From a virus, in IMG/VR virus record IMGVR_UViG_3300025280_000102, positions 1 to 32,404 of that record: a stretch of DNA of 32,404 nt; one strand, written 5' to 3'. The notes under the pieces were generated by a model. It worked only from the letters and a program-made list of their open reading frames with translations, searched no databases and was not told the origin of the DNA. The translations under genes and the position numbers were made by a program. The stretch's first letter is position 1, and the number at the start of each line of letters is the position of its first letter. Shown here piece after piece: positions 2,541 to 31,191 of the stretch.

Positions 2541-3122
2541 ATGCCATTTGATCCATTTGATAGACCCATACCGGGAGAATCTCTTACTAAGCCTATGCAG
2601 GACGATCCTATCTTCGCTGAATCGAAGACCAGCAATTTAGATGAAGCATTTTATCAAACAAGAGATACTATTAAGAATAATAATGCTTTGTATTCTGATT
2701 TATTGCAAATGATATCAGCAGGTGTAGATTTAGAAAGCATAGCAAATGTAATAACATTCGGTTCATTTTCAAAAGGTCAATATTCTCCAGATGTAGCAAT
2801 GCAGCTTGCTCCTCTTCTCATGATATGGATGTATACTGAAGCGCATAAAAGAGGAATAAATGAAGAAGATATAAATGTAATGAATTATCCAGAAAATAAA
2901 TCTATGGGGAATATGTCGCCTACAGATGTAGTAGATTTAATGGAGCGTAAAAACCCAGAAAAATACAAAAAGAAACAAAGAGAAACTGCTACTTCAGAAC
3001 TGGATTCGTTTTTTGAAGCCTTACAAGGAGGCGCTGTTGAAGAAGAACCTATGGAAGAAGATATGGGGTTTATGGGTATGCGAGAAGAACCAGCTACGCC
3101 TGAAGAAATGGAGAATGTATAA
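2541..3122 (+). CDS. Hypothetical protein with acidic Met/Glu-rich C-terminus (193 aa)
   Basis: AGGA nine bases upstream of ATG gives a modest ribosome site. The protein is soluble-looking, with a helical middle at about residues 35-120 and a C-terminal 40 residues dominated by Glu, Met, Pro and Gly. Its stop codon shares one base with the next ATG (TAATG), so the two genes are probably translationally coupled. The neighbours suggest an internal virion protein or an assembly chaperone, and the acidic tail fits a chaperone or scaffold. No recognised family. Confidence 0.55.
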   Translation: MPFDPFDRPIPGESLTKPMQDDPIFAESKTSNLDEAFYQTRDTIKNNNALYSDLLQMISAGVDLESIANVITFGSFSKGQYSPDVAMQLAPLLMIWMYTEAHKRGINEEDINVMNYPENKSMGNMSPTDVVDLMERKNPEKYKKKQRETATSELDSFFEALQGGAVEEEPMEEDMGFMGMREEPATPEEMENV

Positions 3123-5044
3123 TGGCATTTAGCATTAGTGCAAGAGCCTTAAAAGGGCTTGCGATAGGTGCTCTTGAGGAAGATAAACGTCATCGTCTTG
3201 CAGCAGAAACAAGAGTAGATGAACAGGTAAAATTTGATAGAGCTAATGATGCTGCAAAAGAAGCAGCAGCTTTACAAGCAAAAAATGCTATGGCTAGAAC
3301 AAAAGTTACTGCTGGTGCATCAGTAAGGTCTTCACAAATAGCCGCAAGTGCATCTATTAGAAAGGCACAAAATGCCGCTACTATAGCAGAAGAGAATATG
3401 TACGATGATTATGGATTAAAGAAAGTATTTTCAGATTTAAAACTTCCCGGTGTACTTCCTAAATATCTTAAATATGATAGACGAACTAAAGGAGTTGATT
3501 ACTCTCTAGCATATTTTGGTAAATTTAATGGTGCTTTTGCTCATACATTGAAGGCATTAGATACAAAATTTACAGGTACAAAACAAAAAAAAGCTGCAAA
3601 TGATGCATTTGACAAGTATCTTGATAACTTTGTACATCATTCAATAACATCAACTGGCGCATACGCACCAAAATTTGAGGCATTAACTAATAGAAAAACA
3701 TGGGAAGGAGGATTTGATTTAGAAACTGCTTCTCCAGAAGTTTATAAGCGTATTTTAGATGGTGGAGAAGAAAGATTTCCAAAGTCCTTTAAATTGTTAC
3801 AGGGAATAAATCTACAACCTATAAAATTAAATCCAGCTAGTAAAGCATATTTTAATAATAATAAAAATGATGATTTACGCGCAAAAAAGATGACTTTTGC
3901 GGCAGCAAATGATACTGTAGATACAACCAATCGTATAACTACTCCAGAACATGTAGCATCTTTGACTAAAAGTTTGGAAGGAACACCTGATGAAAGACAG
4001 TTAGCAGCAAATAAACTAGTAAATAGTAGATATGGTTTTAATTATAATAAAAATGATCCAGATACATATTTAGATTTTATTATATTATCATCAGTAATAC
4101 CAACAAGAGCAGTTCAAAAAACAACACAAGCTATAGGAGGAGTTAAATCTACTTTACTTCCTTTGAGTAAAGATCAACAAGGAAGATTATCAAAGTTTAG
4201 AGAAAAACTAAGTGAAAGTCGTGATATTATGGCTACTGTTGTACAGGCAAGAGAGCTTAATGCAAATGTTACTGATTATGGTAGATTTCAATTAAATTTT
4301 ATAGGAAGATTTGAAACAATTCTTTCAGGTATAGGAATTGGTCTTACAAATAAATCTAGTACTTCTCCAGTAGGTCAATTTAAATTTGCAGAAGGAGAAG
4401 ATTTAGATAAATTATCAATAGATACTAAAGTTGAACGTGGACTATTTCAGAAGATTTTAGATAAAAGTAATAAAAGAATTATAAGTGCTAGAGAAATATA
4501 TACGGAACAACAAGAGAATGTACCAAAGAATACAAAAACAACAGAAGCAGAAATTAGCGCTATTGAAGAAAAGTATCTTGCTGAAGTAAAATATGAAGCG
4601 ATAAAAATTCAGTTAGTTTATAAAATTGCTAAATTGATTCAAGGTGGTGCTGGTGGTCAAGCTGTATCAAATGCTGACTTTCAGGCTGTTTTGAAATCAA
4701 TGTCATCTAGTGGAATAGGTACATTAAAAGCTGAAGAAGCTATTTTTGGTATGTTGCAAAATATGGTTGAAAGAGTTCACGTTTATAACAAAATTATGTC
4801 AGATGAAACAATATTTCATGGTTCTCAAAATGCAGCGGATAAGGCTATGTCTTTCATAAAAAGGGTTCAGAAGACTAGGCCGGGAGAATTAACTCTAGAC
4901 TCTTCAGAACAAGATACTCTTAATCCTGTTGATAATCAACCAGAAACAGGCTCTAAGGCTTTTAATGCTCTTCCTCCTAATGTACAAAGAAAACTTATGA
5001 TAGAGCGTAAAAGACATACTAAATCTACACCTACTGGTATATAA
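3122..5044 (+). CDS. Probable internal virion / ejection protein (640 aa)
   Basis: The start overlaps the previous stop by one base, with GGAG eight bases before ATG inside the upstream gene. Residues 1-95 form a long Ala/Lys/Glu-rich helix. The remainder is mixed alpha-helical and basic, with no membrane segment and no visible enzymatic motif. Size and place directly before a 1474-aa gene resemble T7 gp15 (747 aa) before gp16 (1318 aa). I infer a core protein that leaves the capsid with the DNA. The sequence itself matches nothing I can name. Confidence 0.55.
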   Translation: MAFSISARALKGLAIGALEEDKRHRLAAETRVDEQVKFDRANDAAKEAAALQAKNAMARTKVTAGASVRSSQIAASASIRKAQNAATIAEENMYDDYGLKKVFSDLKLPGVLPKYLKYDRRTKGVDYSLAYFGKFNGAFAHTLKALDTKFTGTKQKKAANDAFDKYLDNFVHHSITSTGAYAPKFEALTNRKTWEGGFDLETASPEVYKRILDGGEERFPKSFKLLQGINLQPIKLNPASKAYFNNNKNDDLRAKKMTFAAANDTVDTTNRITTPEHVASLTKSLEGTPDERQLAANKLVNSRYGFNYNKNDPDTYLDFIILSSVIPTRAVQKTTQAIGGVKSTLLPLSKDQQGRLSKFREKLSESRDIMATVVQARELNANVTDYGRFQLNFIGRFETILSGIGIGLTNKSSTSPVGQFKFAEGEDLDKLSIDTKVERGLFQKILDKSNKRIISAREIYTEQQENVPKNTKTTEAEISAIEEKYLAEVKYEAIKIQLVYKIAKLIQGGAGGQAVSNADFQAVLKSMSSSGIGTLKAEEAIFGMLQNMVERVHVYNKIMSDETIFHGSQNAADKAMSFIKRVQKTRPGELTLDSSEQDTLNPVDNQPETGSKAFNALPPNVQRKLMIERKRHTKSTPTGI

Positions 5045-10366: not shown

Positions 10367-10957
10367 CTATTTTCTTTCTGTCAGGAAAAAAAGCTCACCA
10401 CCATTTTTATGTTTTGCTCTATTACAATTACAACAGAGTATTTGGTATCTTTCTTTATTTTCTTTTATTTTTTTTAATGAAGGGGCTTTGTCTTTGCTGC
10501 CATCATTAAAAACATGGTCTATTTCTAAATATATTTCTTCTGTTTCTCCACAACAAACACAACGATTGCCCAGAGTATCTAACATACTTTTTCTTCTATC
10601 TCTATAGGATGGTGAAACGATCCACTCCATTCCAACAACATCTTTTTTATACCAATACATTCTGATGTCTCGTACATTTTTACGCCCATACTTCAGGCCC
10701 TCAACCTTTACACCTAAATCTTTCAGAGCATTTATTTTTAACACTGCTGGCTTAATCGCTCGTGCATTTAGGTTAGAAAATGTGGTTAGTTTTCCTTTGG
10801 GTACACCTAATAGCTCTCTAAATTCAGCTACAGTGAACTTCTCCTGCATTCTCACTCTTTGTCTCTTATCTCCTTCTTTTTGTTTAATTACCGCATACAG
10901 CGCCCGTGCATATTTGCTTTTGAGCATATTAGAATTAGACAAGATCGACCACTTCAC
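10367..10957 (-). CDS. Rep_3-type winged-helix domain fused to HNH endonuclease (196 aa)
   Basis: The start is GTG at 10957, with GGGAG six bases upstream inside the RNR gene. The two genes overlap by 23 bases. Residues 11-105 read like the second winged-helix domain of plasmid Rep_3 (RepE/pi-type) initiators: LKSKYARALY near the start, EFRELLGVPKG in the middle, then IKPAVLKIN and GLKYGRKNVRDIRMYW. Residues about 130-190 are an HNH nuclease: CVCC, then LEIDHV with the catalytic His, then YQILCCNCNRAKH. The first Rep winged helix is absent. The probable role is a free-standing homing-type endonuclease with a borrowed DNA-binding domain. A replication nickase or initiator is a less likely alternative. 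Confidence 0.75.
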   Translation of the reverse strand: MKWSILSNSNMLKSKYARALYAVIKQKEGDKRQRVRMQEKFTVAEFRELLGVPKGKLTTFSNLNARAIKPAVLKINALKDLGVKVEGLKYGRKNVRDIRMYWYKKDVVGMEWIVSPSYRDRRKSMLDTLGNRCVCCGETEEIYLEIDHVFNDGSKDKAPSLKKIKENKERYQILCCNCNRAKHKNGGELFFLTERK

Positions 10958-21303: not shown

Positions 21304-21672
21304 TTACCATCCCATAATTAATCGTGTTTCTTCTGGAACCTTTTCCATACTAAACGGTGGATCAAATGTTGTGATTATATCAATAGAATCAACATTCTCC
21401 ACCTCACACGCTTTATGTATAGCATGAATAATTTCATCCGCAAATGGACACCAAGCACTTGTTAGTGTATGCGTAAGTTTAACTGATCCTTCTTTTTCAT
21501 CAATATCAATATTATAAATAAGACCTAATTCATAAATGCTAACACTAGTAATTTCAGGATCATATACATTTTTTAAGTTATTTATAATTAGTTGCTTATC
21601 AATAGGTAGTATTTTATCCTTTTCTCTTTCTACTTTTTCTCTTAGCAGTTTTAGTTTCTCATAAGGTGTCAT
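21304..21672 (-). CDS. MIP18/DUF59 family iron-sulfur assembly protein, SufT/PaaD-like (122 aa)
   Basis: After a charged 30-residue N-terminal helix the DUF59 domain is complete: VYDPEITSVSIYELGLIYNI at about 36-55, then VKLTHTLTSAWCPFADEI with the conserved Cys, then IDIITTFDPPFSMEKVPEET and a Gly-Trp end. Cellular relatives help mature Fe-S proteins or, as PaaD, load a ring-hydroxylating oxygenase. In this phage a possible client is the Cys-cluster Cas4-like nuclease. The start overlaps the preceding gene as ATGA. Confidence 0.9.
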   Translation of the reverse strand: MTPYEKLKLLREKVEREKDKILPIDKQLIINNLKNVYDPEITSVSIYELGLIYNIDIDEKEGSVKLTHTLTSAWCPFADEIIHAIHKACEVENVDSIDIITTFDPPFSMEKVPEETRLIMGW

Positions 21673-23744: not shown

Positions 23745-23773
23745 ATTGTATACACCACATACGCCTTTGTCAA
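23745..23773 (-). promoter_or_regulatory. Leftward sigma70-type promoter of the replication operon
   Basis: On the minus strand, TTGACA (23773-23768), a 17-bp spacer and TACAAT (23750-23745) are followed about 40 bases later by the first leftward gene. A second TTGACA lies at 23784-23779 but has no -10 at a workable distance. The match is close to consensus and the position is exactly where a divergent operon needs it. Confidence 0.75.
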
Positions 23774-23803
23774 GGGCTTGTCAAGTGGTGATGTCATCTT
23801 TTT

Positions 23804-23871
23804 TTTTGTTAGCTCCAAACTTTTGTTAGCTCCAAACTTTTGTTAGCCTCTAACTTTTGTTAGCTCGACAC
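23804..23871. repeat. Four tandem 17-bp repeats (iteron-like)
   Basis: Units start at 23804, 23821, 23838 and 23855, exactly 17 bp apart. Units 1 and 2 are identical, TTTTGTTAGCTCCAAAC. Units 3 and 4 keep TTTTGTTAGC and vary after it. A T-run precedes the array. It lies between the leftward promoter and the rightward promoter, which fits a regulator operator array or an origin with iterons. Confidence 0.85.
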
Positions 23872-23988
23872 CCTACCCCCTCACTGTCATTACTGGGTCG
23901 TTTTCACGGTAGCGTTCAGCGGCTGGCTTGTCAACATCAGTAAGGAAACACTACAGATAATCCTTAACTAGAATGTTGTTAACAGCAC

Positions 23989-24016
23989 TTGACAGGGGTT
24001 GTGGATTTGGTATAGT
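23989..24016 (+). promoter_or_regulatory. Rightward sigma70-type promoter of the accessory module
   Basis: TTGACA (23989-23994), a 16-bp spacer and TATAGT (24011-24016) lie 26 bases before the ATG at 24042. Because the promoter lies inside the longest version of the downstream frame, it also argues for the shorter start. It is divergent from the leftward promoter at 23745-23773. Confidence 0.65.
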
Positions 24017-27383: not shown

Positions 27384-27419
27384 CAGGCTGGCTTGTCTGG
27401 CTTATCAGTTTAGAACTTG

Positions 27420-27449
27420 TGGCGGGTTTGTATAAATTACAGCCCGCCA
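27420..27449 (+). terminator. Terminator-like hairpin at end of accessory module
   Basis: TGGCGGG (27420-27426) pairs with CCCGCCA (27443-27449), and TGTA with TACA inside it, giving a strong stem. It is 36 bases after the last gene of the module. The 3' flank is TATTCTTTCC, so the U-tract is poor, but the position fits transcription termination. Confidence 0.55.
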
Positions 27450-27796
27450 TATTCTTTCCTGAAACTGAACAGCCCTCAATATTTTGTTGGACCTATCGCG
27501 TGCGTGCGCGCATGTGTCATGTGACGTGCAGTAGGATACACCACCAGTACAGCGAATATAGGCATAATCTGGATCGACGGGAGAGGTCAGAAACTAGCGG
27601 AAAACTGCCCATAACCCGATTTGGTCATAGTATAGATAGTCGGTTCTATGTTGTGTTAATAATGTCACAATAAAAAACATATATAAATCAATGGGTTGGG
27701 GTTGCATGGGCCACCCGCCCCCCCGCGTATGAATATACGCAATACCGACAGAAAATGTGTATTTTTAAAGCGTATGATAATAAATAAAAAACAACC
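27450..27796. other. Non-coding stretch with Z-DNA-like tract and hairpin
   Basis: No credible gene is present. It holds a 21-base perfectly alternating pyrimidine-purine tract (27497-27517), one copy of CAGCGAATATA (27550-27560), a C-run near 27717, and the perfect hairpin GCGTAT-GAAT-ATACGC (27725-27740). The left part is GC-rich and the right part turns AT-rich. A TTG-started 84-codon frame at 27419-27673 has no ribosome site or natural composition. Confidence 0.5.
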
Positions 27797-27863
27797 TATA
27801 TTTGCTGACCCAAAAGTCCCTCATATATTTGCTGTGTCTAATTAGTCCATCATATATTCGCTG
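27797..27863. repeat. Three direct repeats of TATATTYGCTG
   Basis: Copies lie at 27797-27807, 27824-27834 and 27853-27863. The last two are parts of a longer 29-bp repeat that also shares the block TCTAATTAGT. A fourth, exact copy lies in the opposite orientation at 27971-27981. The reverse complement, CAGCRAATATA, also occurs at 27550. They follow the leftward promoter at 27918-27946, so they would be transcribed by it, or they may be binding sites for a regulator. Confidence 0.75.
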
Positions 27864-27917
27864 TATCTAATTAGTACTACCCTATCTACACATATAACCC
27901 TTAACCGTATATATACT

Positions 27918-27946
27918 ATTATACAGGTAAAAACTGATTTTGTCAA
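27918..27946 (-). promoter_or_regulatory. Perfect-consensus leftward sigma70 promoter with no gene behind it
   Basis: On the minus strand, TTGACA (27946-27941), a 17-bp spacer and TATAAT (27923-27918) are an exact consensus. There is no minus-strand gene for more than 4 kb to the left; the next features are the repeats at 27797-27863 and then plus-strand genes. Its spacer is nearly the same as that of the rightward promoter at 28159-28187. Confidence 0.7.
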
Positions 27947-27995
27947 GTCTTTTTTTTATTTATTTTTTATCAGCAAATATAGCAAATGTAACCCA

Positions 27996-28110
27996 TTGAA
28001 AAGGTTAGCAAATAAGGGGCAATGTAAATTTCTTAGTCACTGCAAATATTTTTTTTTAAAATTGGGAAACGTAAAAATTTACATCGTCGTTTATTTGCTA
28101 ATACTTTCAA
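27996..28110. repeat. 115-bp interrupted palindrome with symmetric blocks
   Basis: The left arm has TTGAAA (27996), TAGCAAATAA (28006) and ATGTAAATTT (28022). The right arm has their exact reverse complements AAATTTACAT (28075), TTATTTGCTA (28091) and TTTCAA (28105). The unpaired spacers are 4 and 6 bases on both sides, so all blocks share one centre at 28053. The 43-bp middle is AT-rich. It lies between the two outward-facing promoters and upstream of TerS. Confidence 0.85.
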
Positions 28111-28158
28111 AGACTTAACTTTACACTTTTTTATTTTTTATTTTTTTGAAAAAAACAC

Positions 28159-28187
28159 TTGACAAAATGCGATTTTACCCCTATAAT
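28159..28187 (+). promoter_or_regulatory. Perfect-consensus rightward sigma70 promoter of the packaging operon
   Basis: TTGACA (28159-28164), a 17-bp spacer and TATAAT (28182-28187) match consensus exactly, 109 bases before the TerS ATG. The leader between them contains AGCGAATATA at 28285-28294, a copy of the recurring motif, just before the start codon. Confidence 0.8.
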
Positions 28188-28296
28188 AGTAGTAGAGGCT
28201 GGAAAAATATCCACTTCCTCACATGATGAAAAAACCTTTTGTTAGTGAAGATATTACCCATCCTCCTTTTATTTATAATGAAAAAGCGAATATACT

Positions 28297-28701
28297 ATGA
28301 ACGTACCGGCCAAGCGCGAACTGACAGATAAGCAAAAAACTTTTTTAGATAATCTACTTATAAATGGTGGAAATATTACGCAAGCAGTTAAGGAAGCCGG
28401 TTATCATCCCGGTTCTCGCGGAGGGCTGGTACGTTCCCTAAAGCAAGAAATCATAGATCACACTCGCAACCATCTTATAGGTTCTTCCGTGAAAGCAGCT
28501 AATCGCATATCTGAAGCGTTAGATGCAGACGGTTCTATTCCTTCATCACAGATGGATACGCGGCTGAAGGCAGCAAATGATATCTTAGATCGTGTTGGTG
28601 TATCTAAACGACAGGAAGTCGAGCATACCGGAGAGGTCATGCACGGCATCGTATTGCTTCCTGCAAAGCAACCAATGAAGGAAATAACCGTAGAGGGATA
28701 A
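28297..28701 (+). CDS. terS: Terminase small subunit (134 aa)
   Basis: ELTDKQKTFLDNLLINGGNI leads into TQAVKEAGYHPGSRGGLVRS, a helix-turn-helix typical of small terminases. The helical oligomerisation region follows (STRL-like DTRLKAANDILDRVGVSKRQ) and a hydrophobic then acidic tail. It recognises the packaging site and regulates the large subunit. It is the first gene after a perfect promoter and a large palindrome. The ribosome site is weak (AAAAGCGA), with the recurring AGCGAATATA motif in the way. Confidence 0.88.
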   Translation: MNVPAKRELTDKQKTFLDNLLINGGNITQAVKEAGYHPGSRGGLVRSLKQEIIDHTRNHLIGSSVKAANRISEALDADGSIPSSQMDTRLKAANDILDRVGVSKRQEVEHTGEVMHGIVLLPAKQPMKEITVEG

Positions 28702-29574: not shown

Positions 29575-31191
29575 ATGGCACGGCCTAAATTAAAAGATGG
29601 AGAGCGGGGTAATTATAATGTATCCCGCAAGGAGCAAAAAAAGCGTACTATTCAAAAACGCTTAAATTCTCAAAGACGAACACTTGAGAAAGAATCTAAA
29701 AAAGTTAGAACAAGAAGAGAGAAGATAAAACAGAATGAAGAACGTCTTAAAGTACTTAAAAATGGTGGTGTCACTTCCGATGAAAGTTTGGGCGTGGTTC
29801 TTGAAGATAACCAAGAACTCGTGTTCTCTCCTAATGCGGGGCCTCAAACTGACTTCTTAGCAGCACCTGAAAAAGAAGTATTGTATGGTGGTGCTGCCGG
29901 TGGCGGAAAAAGTTATGCGATGCTTGTTGATCTTCTACGGTATGCGAATAATCGCAATCACAGAGCATTGTTGCTACGTAGAACACTTGCAGAGTTAACA
30001 GAGCTTGTCGATCAAAGCAAGAAACTATATTTACACGCTTTTCCGAAAGCACGGTTTAAAGAATCGACTAAGACATGGGAGTTTCCAAGCGGTGCAACAG
30101 CACTCTTTAGTTATGTTGATAAAGATGATGATGTGTATCGCTATCAAGGACAATCGTTCACATGGATAGGAATTGACGAATTAGGCCACTACCCGTCACC
30201 ATACGTGTGGAACTACCTACGATCACGTTTACGGACAGCAGATAGCTCTATAGATACGTATATGAGAGCGACAGCCAATCCCGGTGGTGTTGGTGGCTGG
30301 TGGATCAAGAAGATGTTTATTGATCCTAATCCTCCAAATGAGCCGTTTTGGGCCACAGACATTGATACAAATAAACCGCTAGTCTACGGTCCAAATCATG
30401 CAGATGCGGGAGAGCCGCTGTTTCATCGTAAGTTTATTCCTGCACGGCTAACAGATAATCCGTATCTTATGATTACGGGTGAATACGAAGCGATGCTCTA
30501 TTCTCTGCCAGAGGTTGAGCGAAGAAGGCTACTAGAAGGCGACTGGGATGTAGCAGAAGGTGCTGCATTTAGTGAGTTTAATAGAGAGGTTCACGTTGTT
30601 GATCCGTTTGAAGTTCCCGAAGGTTGGGCAAGGATAAGGGCGGGAGACTATGGATATAGTTCTCCTAGTTGTATTCTTTGGGGCGCAGTTGATTGGGACG
30701 GGAACTTATGGATATATCGGGAATTATACATTAAAGGGTATACAGGCGAAGCATTAGCACAGTTAATCCGTGAAATGGATCGGAAAGATACGAGAATGTC
30801 AATCTCTGTTCTTGATAAATCGTGTTGGAACCGTACTGGATTAGGGCCATCTATAGCAGAAACGATGATACGTCAAGGAGTACGGTGGATTCCATCCGAT
30901 TCAAATAGAATGTCAGGTAAGATAGAAGTACACAGAAGGCTTGCTATGAATGATTATGGAGAACCGCGACTACGAATTTTCTCCACATGCACAAATCTTG
31001 TTCGTACTCTTCCTACAATACCTTTATCTAAGACGAACAGCGAAGATGTCGATACAAAGTCAGATGATCATGCGTATGACGCACTACGATATATGTGTAT
31101 GACTAGACAGGTTTCTACACCACAAGCAGCTATTTTTAGGAATATGCATCATAGGCCACCAGAGCTTACGGATGCTACATTTGGGTACTAA
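29575..31191 (+). CDS. terL: Terminase large subunit (538 aa)
   Basis: The N-terminal 65 residues form a basic helix not usual in TerL. The ATPase follows: Walker A LYGGAAGGGKSYAM near 103-116, arginine-rich RALLLRRTLAELTELV, and Walker B FTWIGIDELG near 193-202 with the catalytic Glu. The RNase H-like nuclease has Asp in RIRAGDYGYSSPSCILWG (about 355-372), Asp in SVLDKSCW and DDHAYDALRYM near 508-518. It translocates and cuts DNA into proheads. The start directly abuts the upstream stop, so it depends on coupling; no strong ribosome site is seen. Confidence 0.95.
   Translation: MARPKLKDGERGNYNVSRKEQKKRTIQKRLNSQRRTLEKESKKVRTRREKIKQNEERLKVLKNGGVTSDESLGVVLEDNQELVFSPNAGPQTDFLAAPEKEVLYGGAAGGGKSYAMLVDLLRYANNRNHRALLLRRTLAELTELVDQSKKLYLHAFPKARFKESTKTWEFPSGATALFSYVDKDDDVYRYQGQSFTWIGIDELGHYPSPYVWNYLRSRLRTADSSIDTYMRATANPGGVGGWWIKKMFIDPNPPNEPFWATDIDTNKPLVYGPNHADAGEPLFHRKFIPARLTDNPYLMITGEYEAMLYSLPEVERRRLLEGDWDVAEGAAFSEFNREVHVVDPFEVPEGWARIRAGDYGYSSPSCILWGAVDWDGNLWIYRELYIKGYTGEALAQLIREMDRKDTRMSISVLDKSCWNRTGLGPSIAETMIRQGVRWIPSDSNRMSGKIEVHRRLAMNDYGEPRLRIFSTCTNLVRTLPTIPLSKTNSEDVDTKSDDHAYDALRYMCMTRQVSTPQAAIFRNMHHRPPELTDATFGY

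Follow-up and report, generated by a model that had tools for sequence, protein, structure and literature searches.

IHF-assisted promoters are known from phage lambda (pL) and from Rhodobacter capsulatus (hupSL). The locus described here resembles them in having an IHF-like site at about −85 upstream of a sigma-70 promoter, together with A/T-rich upstream DNA, but it combines two promoters in one symmetric module, and its putative sites are one base off the consensus. In the lambda packaging site cosB (R3-I1-R2-R1), an IHF site lies between sites for the terminase small subunit, TerS (PMC4669245). Our locus likewise has IHF-like sites with flanking paired sites beside the TerS gene; unlike cosB, it is symmetric and placed between two outward promoters. 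In short-gap HMO-2011-type phages, e.g. Pelagibacter phage HTVC115P, two near-consensus outward promoters also stand upstream of TerS, but the gap between them is mostly 13-51 bp and holds neither a palindrome nor paired IHF-like sites. Finally, polymerase template switching between inverted repeats has two described outcomes, arm homogenisation and spacer inversion (PMC8604942). Both are common to quasipalindromes under template-switch correction and to our locus, whose palindrome differs from neutral quasipalindromes in holding conserved motifs that resemble protein sites. A literature search on IHF with divergent phage promoters returned nothing relevant.

A symmetric module with two outward promoters

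The window, i.e. the whole stretch of 32,404 nucleotides analysed here (IMG/VR record IMGVR_UViG_3300025280_000102), belongs to an HMO-2011-type podovirus. Its TerL is ~50% identical to those of Roseobacter phage CRP-9 and Pelagibacter phage HTVC115P, and its genes include a family A polymerase, a primase-helicase, class II ribonucleotide reductase domains and MazG. The replication operon also contains an iron-sulfur cluster assembly (FeS_assembly_P) protein (21304-21672, minus strand).

The sequence-only reading had described a palindrome (27996-28110) made of three pairs of exact inverted blocks with equal spacers around a centre at 28053. The three pairs and their single centre were confirmed (27996+28110 = 56106), the outer block being TTGAAA (27996-28001, exact inverted partner at 28105-28110) and the middle and inner blocks also having exact inverted partners (Table 1). 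The sizes required correction: the middle block is 11 bp long rather than 10, so that the outer spacer measures 3 bp instead of 4, and the inner spacer, whose six bases were reported as unmatched, in fact matches at two of them. The palindrome reaches a symmetry score of 25. The best of the remaining inverted repeats in the window scores 14, a value that none of 100 first-order Markov versions of 27401-28700 exceeded. TTGAAA forms one half of the longer gapped motif TAAN4TTGAAA / TTTCAAN4TTA, and the whole palindrome sits at the middle of a symmetric module that spans 27914-28191.

A 43-bp inverted pair within this module (27914-27956 / 28149-28191, 86% complementary) holds two outward sigma-70 promoters, in line with the earlier placement of the palindrome between divergent promoters. 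Both read TTGACA-N17-TATAAT, matching at 12/12 bases, and are the only 12/12 sites in the window. A second divergent promoter region (23745-24016), located between the minus-strand replication genes and GP88, reaches 11/12 on both strands and carries four 20-21 bp repeats of TTTTGTTAGC(TCCAAAC).

Table 1 Features of the module and its surroundings, in window coordinates
Feature	Position	Strand	Sequence or remark
Conserved non-coding block	27668..27770	-	In the leftward transcribed region; G-run GGGGGGGCGGGTGG; defined from alignments
Exact IHF consensus site	27686..27698	+	AATCAATGGGTTG; part of the conserved block; L006 and L008 likewise have exact sites
Two 29-bp direct repeats	27815..27872	.	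Just downstream of the leftward start
Leftward sigma-70 promoter	27918..27946	-	TTGACA 27946-27941, N17, TATAAT 27923-27918; kept in TerS relatives
Left A/T-rich stretch	27947..27988	.	42 bp, from −35 to IHF-like site; possible UP element
Left IHF-like site	27989..28001	-	TTTCAATGGGTTA; one mismatch to WATCARNNNNTTR; includes outer block TTGAAA
Middle block, left	28005..28015	.	TTAGCAAATAA; symmetric in the window, kept only partly in relatives
Inner block, left	28022..28031	+	ATGTAAATTT; IHF-like site always 20 bp away in the window-type clade
Centre spacer	28032..28074	.	43 bp, asymmetric; length constant, sequence drifts, orientation flips among relatives
Inner block, right	28075..28084	-	AAATTTACAT on the + strand
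Middle block, right	28091..28101	.	TTATTTGCTAA
Right IHF-like site	28105..28117	+	TTTCAAAGACTTA; one mismatch to WATCARNNNNTTR
Right A/T-rich stretch	28118..28158	.	41 bp, from IHF-like site to −35
Rightward sigma-70 promoter	28159..28187	+	TTGACA 28159-28164, N17, TATAAT 28182-28187; late genes downstream
TerS	28297..28701	+	First rightward gene; phrog_51 1.5e-08; Pfam Terminase_2 27.7 bits (cut-off 26.1)

The module upstream of TerS is kept in relatives. Of the 88 distinct TerS relatives, which include the window, a back-to-back near-consensus promoter pair precedes TerS in 56 and is missing in 28, while four offer too little upstream sequence to judge. Most of the 56 pairs have the short gap between their −35 boxes, and long gaps of 201-232 bp occur among the TerS relatives in three related groups only: the window-type group (window, L001, L004, L006, L007, L008, L009, L098 and L130), the L012-type group (L011, L012, L014, L015/L149, L018, L234 and probably L235, whose contig ends inside the left arm) and a third group (L154/L038, L050 and L110). 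Cultured HMO-2011, CRP-9 and CRP-3/CRP-738 showed no such pair upstream of TerS or TerL. One apparent palindrome carrier, L230, was discarded, as its match to the block pattern fell within a coding sequence and was due to chance. Perfect back-to-back promoters of the same kind were also seen in another large phage group (L023, L032, L049, L066, L086, L116 and ~20 more loci), with a gap of mostly 211-217 bp and a symmetric GAACTATTTTT block.

The late genes for terminase, portal, capsid and tail follow the rightward promoter. In the 53-kb relative L008 there are three 12/12 promoters, namely the two of the module and a leftward one at 29776 that precedes the minus-strand replication genes, and only the rightward promoter of the module points into the late gene block. 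The earlier label of a master switch is therefore apt in a modest sense. In the leader of TerS (28197-28260), AATATCCAC and GTGAAGATATT are complementary to each other and may form a hairpin; L004, L006 and L008 have similar sequence.

On the leftward side, unrelated tandem repeats occupy in relatives the place of the 29-bp repeats of the window. The conserved left block further downstream is present in all window-type relatives that include the region; its consensus fold was weak (covariation term 0.08), and we claim no RNA structure for it. Within the window clade, a leftward transcript would meet a good intrinsic terminator in L008 only (137 nt, −13.6 kcal/mol); that of the window is weak. 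In the short-gap phages L142 (395-592; Pelagibacter phage HTVC115P), L188, L190, L214, L166, L168 and L216, a leftward transcript with a strong intrinsic terminator is predicted at the place occupied by the conserved block in the window-type clade. The distance of 79-112 nt between its start and the terminator points to a short non-coding RNA, and searches with L142, L188, L214 and L166 gave no Rfam match. We regard this transcript as a candidate small RNA of pelagiphage-like viruses.

IHF-like sites and their spacing

IHF bends DNA, and its E. coli consensus is WATCARNNNNTTR (PMC9820253). Most window-type arms deviate from this consensus at one position, among them both arms of the window, L006 and L008 (TTTCAA for WATCAR); the right site of L004 has two mismatches and L130 has none in either arm. 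From the centre outward, a window-type arm consists of AAANTTACAT, 20 bp, TTTCAANNNNTTA, 41-42 bp and TTGACA, and the A/T-rich stretch keeps its 41-42 bp in all window-type arms even though its sequence is asymmetric. In the L012-type relatives both arms match WATCARNNNNTTR exactly, and the −35 box is 20-21 bp away.

Over 18 arms from nine genomes, the mismatches to WATCARNNNNTTR total 9, compared to a mean of 31.6 and a minimum of 24 in dinucleotide shuffles (n=300), and 0/1500 column-permuted consensuses reached 9 (best 19); the motif was first spotted by eye and then tested, and the resulting bias is lessened but not abolished by these controls. Of the 18 arms, 10 have an exact outward site, against 0/222 arms in 111 further phages that have the same pair of promoters. 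The third long-gap group, checked once the motif had been fixed, has one exact site on the side of the TerS-ward promoter, 40 bp from its −35 box, and no exact IHF site in the other arm, so symmetry would not be essential to the use of IHF. An outward-strand IHF-like consensus site upstream of the TerS-ward promoter is thus found in all three long-gap groups.

The distances within the arms are rigid inside each group and differ between groups. The inner block is separated from the IHF-like site by 20 bp in all window-type arms and by 54-55 bp in L012-type arms, while the IHF-like site is 41-42 bp from −35 in the former and 20-21 bp in the latter, a difference of about two helical turns. Measured from the centre of the site, the distances to −35 are 48-49, 40 and 27-28 bp in the three groups, which places the site on approximately the same helical face and preserves its phasing with the promoter across all of them. 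A Pfam search of seven phage records revealed no DNABII (PF00216) gene, and hence no phage-encoded IHF or HU; IHF would therefore have to be supplied by the host.

The inference that the positions of the blocks are constrained was borne out by aligning related phages, in which the blocks are conserved and the spacers drift in sequence at constant length. We then scored left-right identity position by position in four window-type genomes, leaving out L130. The two arms agree at 97% of positions in the IHF core and 97% in the inner block, at 59% in the 20 bp between them, at 37% outside and at 25% in the NNNN of the IHF motif, where 33% is expected by chance. This pattern argues that the symmetry reflects paired protein sites rather than a hairpin, as a stem would not spare precisely the four positions that IHF ignores.

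An RNA hairpin with internal loops or a DNA cruciform, both suggested earlier, would explain why the palindrome folds better than shuffled sequences on both strands (z −3.9 on the + strand, −5.1 on the − strand). However, the palindrome lies upstream of both promoters and, as these fire outward, is transcribed by neither; the arms of L008 and of the L012 group match well at the motifs only, so that elsewhere the stem decays. The Rfam matches were all below threshold (the overlapping MIR397 scored 22.9 bits, its gathering score being 55). As for a cruciform, a loop of 42-43 bp disfavours extrusion, and the arms are just 60-74% alike in most relatives. We consider a folded nucleic acid structure of either kind very improbable.

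Arm homogenisation and centre inversion

In L130 (IMGVR_UViG_3300028607_003397, 2985-3253; a single 4-kb metagenome contig) the inverted arms are perfect over 84 bp (84/84 identical), whereas the spacers of the outward promoters flanking them, each 17 bp long, have diverged. This locus looks like a template-switch-corrected quasipalindrome. Furthermore, the asymmetric centre of L234 and L235 is inverted relative to L012, L018 and L149: compared with L012, the reverse orientation gives z values of 6.5 and 5.6 and the forward one ~0. The centre of L130 is apparently inverted as well with respect to the window, L004 and L006 (z 3.0, 3.4 and 4.0). Homogenised arms in L130 and inverted centres in L234/L235, and probably in L130, match what polymerase template switching would produce, so the arms can look alike beyond functional sites.

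Perfect arms and inverting centres, both typical of template switching, could also mean that the module has no function of its own and is a promoter region duplicated in inverted orientation, whose copies this process keeps similar. Yet the IHF cores and inner blocks remain 92-97% alike in most relatives, where homogenisation is incomplete, while the NNNN positions and the flanks drift to chance. An explanation without function thus appears quite unlikely.

Function of the module

Judging from the sequence comparisons, the palindrome is probably the shared control region of an IHF-bent, two-faced late promoter, a case that rests on few independent lineages. It would look like a palindrome because two promoter halves stand back to back, each comprising a consensus sigma-70 promoter, an A/T-rich stretch, a putative IHF site centred ~48 bp upstream of −35 (about −84 from the start site) and, 20 bp or two helical turns further in, ATGTAAATTT as a candidate landing block for a second protein. 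Host IHF would bend each arm and wrap the upstream DNA toward RNA polymerase, which IHF and the A/T-rich stretch may assist at both promoters. One folded complex could in this way control the late operon (TerS, TerL, portal, capsid and tail) and a putative leftward non-coding RNA, with both firing together. The earlier suggestion of a dimeric protein assembling on both arms agrees with this: relatives keep the motifs while the spacers drift, and we favour a symmetric protein assembly over the other readings. The likeness of the arms beyond the protein sites would stem from common origin and template switching, which homogenises the arms and flips the centre.

The main rival is a packaging start of the lambda cosB type, in which IHF would bend the DNA, TerS dimers would sit on the paired inner blocks and the large subunit would cut nearby. 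The element lies directly upstream of TerS, as cosB does, the IHF site of cosB sits between TerS sites (PMC4669245), and the paired inner blocks here are 20 bp from the IHF-like sites. On the other hand, the spacing of the element is tied rigidly to two outward promoters, most TerS relatives with the promoter pair lack the palindrome and the paired IHF-like sites, and the centre inverts without apparent cost, which would be unexpected of a directional cut site. We therefore hold packaging to be unlikely, and less likely than control of the two promoters.

About as unlikely is a replication origin, where A/T-rich DNA, IHF sites and tandem repeats would recruit an initiator and transcription from the promoters would help to open the DNA. 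IHF takes part in known replication origins, the region has a GC content of ~24%, and tandem repeats with an exact IHF site lie just left of the module. Against this, the tandem repeats are unrelated in sequence among relatives, contrary to an iteron-type origin; a second repeat array exists at 23810-23865; and GC skew tracks gene direction without a turn at the element. The sole Rep-like protein, encoded at 10370-10957 on the minus strand, combines the winged-helix domain of plasmid initiators (Rep3_C) with a second domain that matches HNH-type endonucleases weakly. It occurs neither in the L008 record nor in any other relative searched. It was also considered as a binder of the palindrome and rejected, being absent from the palindrome-bearing relatives.

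A combination of the favoured control of both promoters with packaging, in which one IHF-folded complex would serve as late promoter hub and terminase loading site on a palindrome kept symmetric and flipped by template switching, seems improbable to us; if true, late transcription would be coupled to genome packaging.

HMO-2011-type phages are presented as a dominant and widely distributed marine group in the text that we searched of PMC9038755, which mentions neither promoters nor intergenic regions. For these phages, the two-faced promoter module offers a concrete, testable candidate for a late-gene switch. It also provides a natural palindrome whose arms have been homogenised and whose centre has been inverted while motifs resembling protein sites stayed fixed, so that selection may be separated from the mutational drive towards perfect palindromes.
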